A stretch of 64,000 nucleotides of DNA, taken from contig JAFEDK010000015.1 in the NCBI GenBank assembly GCA_018241665.1, positions 29,958 through 93,957 of the forward strand. Direction: 5' to 3'. The notes beneath the pieces were generated by a model. The model had not been told where the DNA came from and did not search any database. It was given only the letters and a program-made list of their open reading frames with translations. Of this stretch, positions 22,015 through 57,519 are shown piece after piece (within the stretch, counting starts at the first letter, position 1; every line of letters begins with the position of its first letter). The DNA comes from Pseudomonadota bacterium. Its GTDB lineage: Bacteria; Pseudomonadota; Gammaproteobacteria; Burkholderiales; Rhodocyclaceae. Both the position numbers and the translations under genes were made by a program.

Positions 22015-22503
22015 TCAGCTCCGCGGACGGTAATGGCCATGGGGATGGGCGTGCCCCTCGGCATGCGGATGGCTATGGCCGTGGGTGTGGCTCTGCGTAC
22101 CGAATTCCGCCGTCACCAGATTCAGTGCGCCATGGCGGATGCCCGGCTTGGCGATCAGTGCATCGGCGAAGGCCCGCACCTCGGCCGTCGGGCCGCGCAG
22201 GATGACACTTTCCATGCAGTTGTCGTGATCCAGGTGGGCGTGCAGGGTCGCCACGCACAGGTCGTGGTGCTCGTGCTGGTCGTGGGTGACGCGCTCCGCC
22301 AGCTCGCGCTCGTGGTGGTTGTAGACGTAGGACAGGTTGGCGATGCAGTGCCCAGCTTCTTCACGCGCCAGCCGGTTGCTCTCCAGTTGGGCGCGCAGGA
22401 TGTCGCGCACGGCCTCGGAACGGTTCGAGTAGCCGCGGGCAGCGATCAGCGCATCGAACTCGCGGGCCAGATCTTCGTCGAGGGAGATGGTGAAACGTTC
22501 CAC
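22015..22503 (-). CDS. nikR: Nickel-responsive regulator NikR with a His-rich tail
   Basis: A 162-residue ribbon-helix-helix repressor. The N-terminal domain is MERFTISLDEDLAREFDALI with YSNRSEAVRDILR; the ACT-like metal domain has LHAHLDHDNCMES, holding the His/His/Cys nickel ligands. Beyond the usual end (about 135 residues) it has an extra C-terminal tail with nine His in about 20 residues (from THGHSHPHAEG on), probably a nickel-binding or storage extension. The start is GTG (22503) after GGAGC. First gene of a probable nikR-hupT operon. Likely target: the nickel transporter operator at 20514-20540. Confidence 0.93.
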   Translation of the reverse strand: MERFTISLDEDLAREFDALIAARGYSNRSEAVRDILRAQLESNRLAREEAGHCIANLSYVYNHHERELAERVTHDQHEHHDLCVATLHAHLDHDNCMESVILRGPTAEVRAFADALIAKPGIRHGALNLVTAEFGTQSHTHGHSHPHAEGHAHPHGHYRPRS

Positions 22504-27740: not shown

Positions 27741-27809
27741 TGTGGGGGTGAATTCATTCGCCCATCGCCGGTAGCAGCGCGTCCGCGGGCGAATGAATTC
27801 GCCCCCACA
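27741..27809. repeat. REP/BIME-like double palindrome, copy A
   Basis: Arms GGTGAATTCATTCGCCC and GGGCGAATGAATTCGCCC flank a variable 23-bp centre. Each arm is itself a near palindrome and the two arms are inverted. It lies between hoxA and hupU. One arm has a T for C change (GGTGAATTC). Confidence 0.93.
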
Positions 27810-31426: not shown

Positions 31427-31492
31427 TTGGGGCGAATTCATTCGACCGCGGAGCTTGAGGCACCGGCGGAGGGCGAATGAATTCGCCCCACG
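31427..31492. repeat. REP/BIME-like double palindrome, copy B
   Basis: Arms GGGGCGAATTCATTCG and GGGCGAATGAATTCGCCCC around a 28-bp centre, between hypE and the ABM gene. The left arm has lost its last CCC (now ACC), so this copy is slightly decayed. Confidence 0.9.
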
Positions 31493-32592: not shown

Positions 32593-32658
32593 TTGGGGCG
32601 AATTCATTCGCCCATGAAGATTGAACAGGGGCAGAGGGCGAATGAATTCGCCCCCACG
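32593..32658. repeat. REP/BIME-like double palindrome, copy C
   Basis: Arms GGGGCGAATTCATTCGCCC and GGGCGAATGAATTCGCCCCC around a 22-bp centre unlike those of other copies. It fills the space upstream of hypE, between hypE and the 118-residue gene. Confidence 0.92.
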
Positions 32659-49716: not shown

Positions 49717-49813
49717 GGATACCAACCCCCTGGTGGAACATCAGGCCCGGATATGTTCTGATCTATCGCGACGCAAGCGGGCCGGCACGGTCGCACATGG
49801 CGAGAGGGGATTT

Positions 49814-49829
49814 AACAAAAAGCGTGCCC
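49814..49829 (-). promoter_or_regulatory. Candidate sigma-54 promoter of hupSLC
   Basis: On the minus strand GGGCACGCTTTTTGTT aligns with the -24/-12 consensus TGGCACG-N4-TTGCA: a near-perfect -24 box, correct GG-N10 spacing, but TTGTT instead of TTGC at -12. Transcription would start near 49802, 86 bp before hupS. HoxA is a sigma-54 activator, so such a promoter is expected. A weaker alternative is TGCCGGCCCGCTTGC at 49773-49787. Confidence 0.45.
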
Positions 49830-49923
49830 AATTTCGGCAGACTTAAAAAACCCTTATCCGACAAGGCCTTATCGATTCACGACGGCCTGTCGCGCCAACC
49901 ACGCCGGGAGAGTGGTAATCAAC

Positions 49924-49933
49924 TGACCGGTCA
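49924..49933. promoter_or_regulatory. Perfect palindrome in the hupS/acetyltransferase spacer
   Basis: TGACCGGTCA is a perfect 10-bp palindrome within the 284-bp divergent spacer, about 100 bp upstream of the candidate hupS promoter. It could be an operator for HoxA or another regulator. No protein can be assigned from the sequence alone. Confidence 0.3.
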
Positions 49934-50000
49934 AACGGAAACCAGCCATCCACTTCAGCGCCAACCAAACGACATAAACCCGAATTTTCCGACACCCACG

Positions 50001-50498
50001 ATGAGCGACCTTTCCATCCAGCCCGTCGACTTCGACGACGCGGCCCAGCGCGACGATTTTCTCGACCTGCTCGACCACTACATGCGCGGCCCCACCGGCA
50101 GCGGCCAGGCCATGGGCGACGAATTGCGCGCACGCCTGCCGGACGAGTTGCGCCGCCGCCCGACCGTGCTGAGCTTCATCGCCTACTGGAACAAGAAAGG
50201 GGAGCGGCAGGCCGCCGGGCTGATCAACTGCGTGGAGGGCTTCTCCACCTTCGCCGGCAAACCGCTGTTGAATGTGCACGACATCATCGTGCACGAGGAC
50301 TTCCGCCGCCGGGGTATCGCCACGGCGCTGCTGGCCCACGCCGAACAGGTGGCGCGGGAACGGGGCTGCTGCAAGCTGACCCTCGAGGTGCTCGAAGGCA
50401 ATGCCGGCGCCCGCCAGGCCTACCTGAACAGCGGCTTCGCGGGCTACCAGCTCGACCCGGCCATGGGCCAGGCCCTGTTCATGGAAAAGAAGCTCTAG
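50001..50498 (+). CDS. GNAT-family N-acetyltransferase
   Basis: A 165-residue GNAT acetyltransferase. Motif A lies at VHDIIVHEDFRRRGIATALL (acetyl-CoA pyrophosphate loop RRRGIA); motif B is EVLEGNAGARQAYLNSGFAG near the C-terminus. The start MSDLSIQPVDFDD is used, although no clear Shine-Dalgarno precedes it and the frame is open upstream to 49797. Transcribed divergently from hupS. Substrate unknown. Confidence 0.85.
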   Translation: MSDLSIQPVDFDDAAQRDDFLDLLDHYMRGPTGSGQAMGDELRARLPDELRRRPTVLSFIAYWNKKGERQAAGLINCVEGFSTFAGKPLLNVHDIIVHEDFRRRGIATALLAHAEQVARERGCCKLTLEVLEGNAGARQAYLNSGFAGYQLDPAMGQALFMEKKL

Positions 50499-50519: not shown

Positions 50520-50795
50520 TCAGCCCAGCTCCGGCGGCACCCATTCCATTTCGTGGGGAAACAGGCCGACGCTGCTCACCGCCGTCGTCTCCACGCAGTT
50601 CCACCACATGGTCACCCAGGCGCGGCCCTCCTCGTCGATCTTCTCCACCTCGGAGATCGCCCCGACCATGAACATGATCATGTCCAGTTCGTCCTCGTCC
50701 ATGTCCGGGTCCGGCGAAACGGACAGGATCCGCACATGTTCGCCCACGGTGACCGCCCGGCCGTTCCTGTCCTTCACACTAACTCTTGCATCCAT
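50520..50795 (-). CDS. Unknown 91-residue acidic protein with a sigma-54/NifA-type promoter
   Basis: The protein MDARVSVKDRNGRAVTVGEH … WVPPELG is acidic in the middle (PDPDMDEDELD) and looks like a small beta-barrel (GRAVTVGEHVRIL, then WVTMWWNCVET). No signal or cysteine pair. Not recognised. The ATG at 50795 has GGGAG in front. Upstream are a -24/-12 promoter (50858-50873) and two NifA sites shared with the divergent nafY, so it is probably made during nitrogen fixation. Confidence 0.75.
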   Translation of the reverse strand: MDARVSVKDRNGRAVTVGEHVRILSVSPDPDMDEDELDMIMFMVGAISEVEKIDEEGRAWVTMWWNCVETTAVSSVGLFPHEMEWVPPELG

Positions 50796-50857
50796 GTGGG
50801 TCTCCCGCTGTCGCATTGTCGAAGACCGCCGCAATCCGGCGGTGTCGAACAAGGCTT

Positions 50858-50873
50858 AGCAAGCTTCGAACCA
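50858..50873 (-). promoter_or_regulatory. -24/-12 (sigma-54) promoter facing the 91-residue gene
   Basis: On the minus strand TGGTTCGAAGCTTGCT has GG and TTGC at the exact GG-N10-GC spacing of sigma-54 promoters. Two central positions differ from TGGCACG. The predicted start near 50847 leaves a leader of about 50 nt. NifA sites lie 64 and 118 bp upstream. Confidence 0.6.
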
Positions 50874-50936
50874 CGCCTCCTCGGCCCCGGATAGCGCCTC
50901 CGCCGCGGCATCCTGGCCCCCTTGACGCCCCCGGCT

Positions 50937-50952
50937 TGTCGGGAAGGCGACA
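50937..50952. promoter_or_regulatory. NifA upstream activator site 1
   Basis: TGT-CGGGAAGGCG-ACA fits the NifA consensus TGT-N10-ACA exactly. It lies between the divergent sigma-54 promoters, 64 bp from the minus-strand one and 145 bp from the plus-strand one. Confidence 0.7.
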
Positions 50953-50990
50953 TCCCGCCGCCGTAACCCCGCCACGCCGGACGCGGGTTT

Positions 50991-51006
50991 TGTCGTTGAA
51001 ACGACA
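50991..51006. promoter_or_regulatory. NifA upstream activator site 2
   Basis: TGT-CGTTGAAACG-ACA, a second exact TGT-N10-ACA that is itself nearly symmetric (GTCGTT/AACGAC). It is 91 bp upstream of the nafY -24 box, a typical distance for NifA sites. Confidence 0.75.
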
Positions 51007-51097
51007 CATCGCCAACCGCCGGGCGGGCCCCGGCATCCGGCAACTTCCGCTTTGCCGACAAGCACTTGAACTGCGCACCGAACGACATGCCGGGAGC

Positions 51098-51113
51098 TGG
51101 CACTGTATCTGCT
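51098..51113 (+). promoter_or_regulatory. -24/-12 (sigma-54) promoter of nafY
   Basis: TGGCACTGTATCTGCT matches TGGCAC-N5-TTGCA with exact GG-N10-GC spacing; only the first T of TTGC is C. The start would be near 51124, 28 bp before the nafY ATG. Two NifA sites are upstream. Confidence 0.8.
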
Positions 51114-51151
51114 GATAGCTGGGGAAACATCACAAGCGAGCGGAGTCCCCC

Positions 51152-51898
51152 ATGGAAAAACCCGAAAAGATCACCCGCGAGGCCGCCCTCCGGGTGGCCC
51201 TTGCCGCGCGGGCCATGCCCAACATCGGCCTGACCCGCCTGATCGAAGTCCTGCAGGAATGCCTCGGCGACAGCATCGACACCGAGACCCTGCGCAACAT
51301 CACCGTCACCCACTTGAAGACCGGCTTCGGCAGCCTCGACGGCGAGGAGGACGGCGAAGACATCGGCATCGGCCTGGAGGCCATGAAGCTGGCCGTGCGC
51401 ATCCTGTGGGGCGACGCCGACGACGACGAAGGCCTGCCGCCGCTCGAGCCCTACCACGAAGGCGACATGCCGGGCTCGGTGCGCGTCGCCATCGCTTCCG
51501 ACTTCGGCCTGGCGCTCAACGGGCACTTCGGCTCCTGCCTGCGCTTCCTGGTCTATCAGGTGTCGCCCACCGCGAGCCGCCTGATCGACGTTCGCCACAC
51601 CGCCGAAGCCGATTTCGCGCCGGACAAGAACCTGTTCCGCGCCCAGCTCATCGGCGACTGCCACGTGGTGTACGTGGTGTCCGTCGGCGGTCCGGCGGCG
51701 GCCAAGATCATTCGTGCCGACATCTACCCGATCAAGCTGGCGGAAGGCGGCCCGGCGGACGAGGTGATCGCCAAGTTCCAGCACGCCATGGAGAACTCGC
51801 CGCCGCCCTGGCTGCTGAAGATCCTCGGCGTCGCCGCGGAGAACCGGCTGCGCAACTACGGCGCCAACCGGGCGGCAGACGACGTTCACGCGGACTGA
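51152..51898 (+). CDS. nafY: Nitrogenase accessory factor NafY-type protein
   Basis: A 248-residue two-domain protein. The N-terminal NafY-type helical domain (ITREAALRVALAARAMPNIG, residues 7-75) is followed by a NifX/NifB-C-like cofactor-binding domain (about 108-225: VRVAIASDFGLALNGHFGSC, then VYVVSVGGPAAAKIIRADIY). NafY binds FeMo-co and apo-dinitrogenase and helps insert the cofactor. The promoter shows sigma-54 and NifA elements. No other recognised nif gene is in the window, so the main nif cluster must be elsewhere. Confidence 0.9.
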   Translation: MEKPEKITREAALRVALAARAMPNIGLTRLIEVLQECLGDSIDTETLRNITVTHLKTGFGSLDGEEDGEDIGIGLEAMKLAVRILWGDADDDEGLPPLEPYHEGDMPGSVRVAIASDFGLALNGHFGSCLRFLVYQVSPTASRLIDVRHTAEADFAPDKNLFRAQLIGDCHVVYVVSVGGPAAAKIIRADIYPIKLAEGGPADEVIAKFQHAMENSPPPWLLKILGVAAENRLRNYGANRAADDVHAD

Positions 51899-51921
51899 AA
51901 ACCGTTCCTGGAGGACACGCC

Positions 51922-52188
51922 ATGACCAAGCCGAAACCCGATCACTTCGAGGCCACTGCCGCGCTGATCAGCAACGCGATCGGTACGGCCCGCGTCTTTG
52001 GCGAGAACCCGCGCATCACGCGGCTGGTGGCCAGCAGCATCGGCCGCTTCGCCGCCGAACTGGACAACGCGCCGGATGCCATCGCCGCCGGCACCCAGCT
52101 GATCAGCTACGCCCTCGCCCAGATCAGCGAGCAGGACGCACTGTTCGTGCCCAAGCTGCACGCCTCGCTGGAGGAACTGGGCCGCTGA
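51922..52188 (+). CDS. Unknown 88-residue protein cotranscribed with nafY
   Basis: The helical protein MTKPKPDHFEATAALISNAI … LHASLEELGR has no membrane segment or known motif. It follows nafY by 23 bp with a strong GGAGGA Shine-Dalgarno, so it should share the NifA-controlled promoter. Function not recognised. Confidence 0.75.
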   Translation: MTKPKPDHFEATAALISNAIGTARVFGENPRITRLVASSIGRFAAELDNAPDAIAAGTQLISYALAQISEQDALFVPKLHASLEELGR

Positions 52189-52221: not shown

Positions 52222-52288
52222 GTGGGGGCGAATTCATTCGCCCTCGGACGTTGTCGCAGCCACCGCGGGCGAATGAATTCGCCCCCAC
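52222..52288. repeat. REP/BIME-like double palindrome, copy D
   Basis: Arms GGGGGCGAATTCATTCGCCC and GGGCGAATGAATTCGCCCCC around a 26-bp centre. Both arms are intact. Between the nafY operon end and the ilvD terminator. Confidence 0.95.
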
Positions 52289-57450: not shown

Positions 57451-57519
57451 CGTGGGGGCGAATTCATTCGCCCTCCGAGCGTTGCTTAACATCCGCGGGC
57501 GAATGAATTCGCCCCCACG
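57451..57519. repeat. REP/BIME-like double palindrome, copy E
   Basis: Arms GGGGGCGAATTCATTCGCCC and GGGCGAATGAATTCGCCCCC with a 26-bp centre. It lies inside the transporter operon, between the binding-protein gene and livH, where a stable hairpin could protect the upstream mRNA or reduce permease expression. Confidence 0.95.

Follow-up and report, generated by a model that had tools for sequence, protein, structure and literature searches.

S91 and S88, two small proteins encoded around nafY, as probable members of a NifA/sigma54 regulon

Comparison of the window (i.e. the whole 64,000-nucleotide stretch of DNA that was analysed) with related genomes suggests that the genes for two small proteins of 91 and 88 residues, referred to here as S91 and S88, belong together with nafY to a NifA/sigma54 regulon. 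Going by sequence, we put the probability of this at roughly 0.85, a figure that applies to regulon membership rather than to the roles of the proteins. The gene order, the co-occurrence with nif and the promoter anatomy were observed directly by comparison. Nitrogenase depends on many helper proteins, and engineering nitrogen fixation into other organisms requires knowing them; two small regulon members, one of which accompanies the cofactor carrier NafY, are direct targets for gene deletion.

S91 is encoded on the minus strand at 50520-50795 (stop codon included), as indicated by its open reading frame, orthologs and alignment, and according to the alignment with relatives it starts at an ATG rather than with the longer TTG frame. 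On the plus strand lies nafY (51152-51898), encoding a nitrogenase accessory factor of the FeMo-cofactor carrier family, which matches PF16844 (1.2e-32) in its N-terminal and PF02579 (1.3e-17) in its C-terminal part, both above the gathering score. The S88 gene (51922-52188, plus) starts 23 bases after nafY, with which it probably shares one message. Between S91 and nafY, the two TGT-N10-ACA sites of the original prediction were recovered at 50937-50952 and 50991-51006 (no strand assigned); both also fit the fuller NifA-type palindrome TGTCG-N6-CGACA, and both are also present in the relatives L010 and L011. The two predicted -24/-12 boxes are likewise in place, that facing nafY (TGGCACTGTATCTGCT, 51098-51113, plus) with one mismatch to TGGCACNNNNNTTGCW and that facing S91 (TGGTTCGAAGCTTGCT, 50873-50858, minus) with two. 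A REP-like dispersed element, made up of GGGCGAATGAATTCGCCC in paired inverted repeats, occurs five times: just behind S88 at 52226-52284, and at 27746-27804, 31430-31488, 32596-32653 and 57456-57514. Matches to GGGCGAATGAATTCGCCC with at most two mismatches number 18, where none are expected.

Farther along the minus strand, hupS, hupL, hupC and hupD run from 49725 down to 43686, separated from S91 by an acetyltransferase gene (49797-50498, plus). The host organism is close to Zoogloea; S91 was found in only three sequence records, one of Zoogloea sp. LCSB751 and two of MAGs, and the plasmid search returned no match to S91, S88 or a second S91 member. Its own nifH, nifD and NifA were found, all on contigs other than that of the window.

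The bare TGT-N10-ACA motif is not rare in the 64 kb window (4 observed versus 6.2 expected), and places with at most two mismatches to the -24/-12 consensus number 34 versus 34.8 expected, so that the minus box taken alone is not significant. The fuller palindrome, in turn, occurs at 11 places in the 5.4 Mb genome versus 2 for a backwards-read control, two of these places being the ones between S91 and nafY. Its other places in the genome include the gap that separates a draT from a further gene close to nifH (L139), the upstream side of rnfH, with nifA some 4 kb away (L140), and the flank of a flavodoxin gene (L138). For four of the 11 (L135, L137, L141 and L143) no link to nif was seen. The nifH of this genome has the box, but the single palindrome-like site within 400 bases, TGTGAAACTCCCTACA, falls outside the fuller motif. 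Two further occurrences are worth recording: a gene for a 4Fe-4S protein (L136:82-1446, minus) has a perfect -24/-12 box with an exact palindrome 44 bases away, and a 197-residue protein with no Pfam match (L142:1604-2197, plus) has a box with an exact palindrome 82 bases upstream, which makes it, by its sequence context, a candidate for another regulon member.

Co-occurrence with nitrogen fixation was assessed in 249 genomes of the family, 107 of which have nifD (TIGR01282, E up to 1e-150). S88 is present in 15 of the 249 and S91 in 34 at E up to 0.01, 28 of which are strong matches (E up to 5e-22), counts that are not independent because the sampled genomes are related (and some of them fragmented). 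All 15 holders of S88 have nifD, as do 23 of the 28 strong holders of S91, and the other five (G030, G089, G140, G194 and G215) have NifA over the curated cut-off. In these five, nifL-like and rnf-like frames were named by inspection of their sequence, as were NifB-like frames in G140 and G194. Their nifHDK genes are truncated or missing; nifH runs into the end of a contig in G030 and G215, and has no match in G089, G140 and G194. The six weak S91 matches (E 2e-11 to 6e-3) are divided between three genomes with nifD (G074, G120 and G245) and three with no nifD, no NifA over the cut-off and no nifH match (G058, G090 and G200). A scan of 14 genomes, covering 11 of the 28 strong holders and three of the weak ones, found NifA over the cut-off in all of the former and in none of the latter. 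Within the four genera that have both nif-positive and nif-negative members, all ten strong S91 holders are nif-positive (exact P 0.002), in strata compiled by hand from the listed matches, from which genomes without any listed match are possibly absent. The original prediction, against which a wide occurrence of the small genes in nitrogenase-free genomes would have counted, is thus not refuted by the distribution in the family. At the same time, 84 of the 107 nifD-positive genomes are without strong S91 and 92 are without S88, and neither protein is therefore generally required for nitrogen fixation.

S88 was found solely within this bacterial family (249 family and 300 order genomes searched), its profile matching, among the 300 genomes of the order, only the own genome. 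The S91 profile gave 12 matches in the same 300 genomes, ten of which are distant members outside the family, and only the own genome among 349 genomes of the phylum. Two of the ten distant members have nifH over the cut-off in their genome, and none is preceded by a -24/-12 box scoring at least 9. Because eight of these ten, and three of the six weak matches in the family, are without nifH over the cut-off, S91 is a nif-linked branch of a larger family of small proteins that is for the most part nif-free.

The two genes differ in how firmly they are placed. S88 lies immediately behind nafY in all 15 holders. S91 is divergent from nafY in G000, G094 and G190, convergent to it in G133 and G175, near it in G062 and G201, and third in a nafY-S88-S91 row in G180 and G204; it adjoins draT in G177 and nikR in G026, G086, G130 and G161 (all one genus), precedes a hydrogenase-like gene near hypA in G030 and G089, and has other neighbours in the remaining genomes. 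For nine of the 28 S91 loci, nafY is inside the fetched stretch (a distant nif-cluster paralog in G177 being excluded). S91 has no fixed tie to NafY, as most genomes carry it at some other place. The acetyltransferase was considered as a partner of S91 and rejected, since, of 41 relative loci searched by tblastn, only those of the three closest relatives contain it, two of them with another gene in between; this neighbourhood of the window is not retained in other genera. Outside the family, acetyltransferase and S91-like domains are fused in one open frame (L122:4983-5735, minus). Other observations on the neighbourhoods are a NikR-like gene in the window (22021-22503, minus; tblastn 2e-65), some 28 kb from S91, and a protein of 555-630 residues near S91 or nafY in four genomes (L058, L059, L070 and L085), the L070 copy of which matches the nitroreductase family; the nif list of Dechloromonas aromatica, in the excerpt of PMC2907700 used here, includes a nitroreductase of 558 residues.

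Given such neighbours, it could be argued that S91 acts for the uptake hydrogenase or for the supply of its nickel, by helping to produce or regulate this enzyme of nitrogenase H2 recycling, with NifA providing the timing only. Besides hupSLCD in the window and the nikR, hydrogenase-like and hypA genes near S91 in the six genomes mentioned, the distribution fits this: with close HupL defined as over 1100 bits (52 of the 249 family genomes), strong S91 is present in 19 of 34 genomes with both nifD and close HupL, in 4 of 73 with nifD only, in 1 of 18 with HupL only and in 4 of 124 with neither, while the corresponding numbers for S88 are 14, 1, 0 and 0. However, S91 also sits beside nafY or draT, it is absent from 17 of the 18 genomes with close HupL and no nifD, and upstream of hupS no valid -24/-12 box was recognised. 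Within genera, moreover, HupL does not track S91, given that G204 and G239 have S91 without close HupL, and S91 is absent from G146 and G199, both with nifD and close HupL. Since the co-occurrence does not hold within genera, it may reflect shared ancestry or ecology. The tie to an uptake hydrogenase that would recycle nitrogenase H2, as suggested in the original prediction, thus comes down to co-occurrence across lineages, with no support from the within-genus comparison, and a hydrogenase role for S91 seems unlikely.

Membership of S91 in the NifA/sigma54 regulon is argued for most strongly by the promoters of its relatives, since sigma54-type control appears, from these sequences, to have been retained while the gene moved, or to have been replaced by the promoter of nafY. 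A box (score of at least 9 of 11) precedes 25 of the 28 strong S91 genes, which is what makes the minus box of the window credible, versus 27 of 501 control upstreams in the same loci (taken from an uncurated automatic gene caller, genes inside operons included) and a mean of 1.2 of 28 in shuffled sequence (maximum 6); after removal of four near-identical loci the count is 21 of 24. The three boxless genes are those of G180 and G204, which are in the nafY row, and that of G194, with a score of 8 and an exact palindrome. A perfect TGTCG-N6-CGACA precedes 13 of the 28 (shuffle mean 0.01, maximum 2), and with one mismatch allowed the palindrome precedes 18 (shuffle mean 0.4, maximum 3). For five boxed genes (G115, G067, G150, G176 and G239), the 300 bases scanned contain no palindrome even when two mismatches are allowed. 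The fetched relatives contain 21 nafY genes, 19 of which are of the window's type; the box precedes all 19 and the palindrome 18 of them, always upstream of the box, whereas the two nif-cluster paralogs (L070 and L092, 49-50% identical) have neither. The reading of this region as a nitrogen-fixation control region is therefore strengthened, as box and palindrome persist with both S91 and nafY in relatives, and the small genes indeed appear, by nif co-occurrence and retained promoter anatomy, to be placed for induction together with nitrogenase.

The position of the palindrome relative to the S91 box is variable. It is upstream of the box in the window, its two closest relatives, G026, G086, G130 and G161. 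In 14 of the 28 genomes (L012-L015, L017, L018, L021, L024, L025, L027-L030 and L036) it is downstream of the box and ahead of the start codon, and in eight of these 14 it is exact. Measured from the box start, the offset is 40 or 41 bases in G032, G062, G201 and G133 (at most one mismatch) and in G038, G175 and G177 (two mismatches, a class outside the shuffle controls, which cover exact and one-mismatch sites), 61 bases in G170 and G215, and 98 to 110 bases in G030, G089, G104, G140 and G194. In the S91 tree the 41-base group forms one clade and the other leader-site genes two more, and the leader sites are therefore not 14 independent events. The leader palindrome could also be a hairpin in the mRNA, but a DNA site is favoured because other relatives have the palindrome upstream of the box. 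Such leader-placed NifA-type sites constitute a natural series of promoter layouts on where NifA can act from.

A site downstream of the promoter is unusual for NifA, which, as half of the strong S91 genes have one and each of the 14 scanned genomes has several NifA relatives, would be in line with real sigma54 boxes being served by another enhancer-binding protein, so that the genes answer a different signal. This is quite improbable, considering that NifA is over the cut-off in the 11 scanned strong holders and in none of the three weak ones, and that the palindrome of S91 is the same motif as that before nafY. It is hardly credible that the minus box and the reading frame of S91 arose by chance in GC-rich DNA between genes, since, although the box by itself is at chance level in the window, S91 proteins of different genera still share 43-57% identity, and a box precedes 25 of 28 orthologs despite differing neighbours.

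The two proteins had been described as unrecognised, and they indeed have no match in Pfam or NCBIfam at E up to 0.1. Profile comparison with Pfam (26 S91 and 14 S88 members) gave nothing above threshold, the sub-threshold matches of S91 being NfeD, KOW and SH3 (best E 0.012), and the best matches among solved structures (E 0.19 for S91, 0.26 for S88) were to unrelated eukaryotic or bacterial proteins. The S91 alignment shows a run of acidic residues and a conserved WV-MWW motif; that of S88 is conserved in its first half (GEN-RITRLVA-S-GRFAAEL). A single-sequence model of S88 is all-helical at low confidence (pLDDT 61.7), and that of S91 (pLDDT 39.9) is useless for the fold. S88 was rejected as a relative of a NafY domain (profile comparison probability 0.1, no Pfam match), as was a relation of S91 to small proteins of ten fetched nif-region loci, where, S91 itself excepted, the highest-ranking match was RnfH (probability 14.8 over 13 columns).

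NafY carries the iron-molybdenum cofactor to apo-nitrogenase in Azotobacter. Delivery of FeMo-cofactor by NafY is an established finding (PMC8496260). From the promoter anatomy we infer that NifA, bound at the two palindromes, would activate sigma54 RNA polymerase at the two divergent -24/-12 promoters, one leading to nafY and S88 and the other to S91; with this shared control, production of all three proteins would coincide with that of nitrogenase. S88, with four predicted helices, would most likely work with NafY at cofactor carriage to apo-nitrogenase, and we give it close to an even chance of being a NafY partner. For S91 the most likely role would be that of a small acidic SH3/KOW-like barrel with nitrogenase or some other regulon protein as its binding partner, an assignment that we hold at somewhat less than even. 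Of the proposal that the two are new accessory or protection factors, regulon placement is thus supported by comparison, whereas the role itself stays a candidate. A broader and still more tentative proposal is that S91 and S88 represent two undescribed nitrogenase-regulon families of one bacterial family, in which S88 would be dedicated to NafY as its partner and S91 would mark NifA promoters with a leader enhancer, 40-110 bases past the box start, from which NifA would act from downstream or limit its own target.

Compared with known NifA/sigma54 nif promoters, the control region between S91 and nafY is similar in that its TGT-N10-ACA sites lie 79-161 bases upstream of a box of the TGGCAC-N5-TTGC type, and different in that two divergent genes share a single pair of sites and that, in 14 of 28 S91 genomes, the site is downstream of the box. 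In the sections of the literature consulted on azo3080, on NafY with small or hypothetical proteins, and on NifA downstream sites, no S91, S88 or NifA leader site was recognised. PMC2907700 lists NafY-1 of D. aromatica RCB with an 86-residue hypothetical neighbour (Table 4), and, going by that description, it resembles the NafY of the window as a second NafY outside the nifHDK operon with a small-protein neighbour. In Azoarcus BH72, as far as the excerpt of PMC3916325 goes, NifA/RpoN-controlled hypothetical genes include azo3080, and NifA also controls hoxB; by description, azo3080 codes for a hypothetical protein, has predicted RpoN and NifA sites and is expressed in a NifA-dependent way, as would be expected of S91. 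A precedent for downstream enhancer-binding sites is FleQ of Pseudomonas aeruginosa, whose sites are either upstream or downstream of the sigma54 promoter (Jyot 2002, as cited in the portion of PMC5026340 used). FleQ is, however, a flagellar activator, whereas the S91 locus has a NifA-type motif and nif-linked genes.
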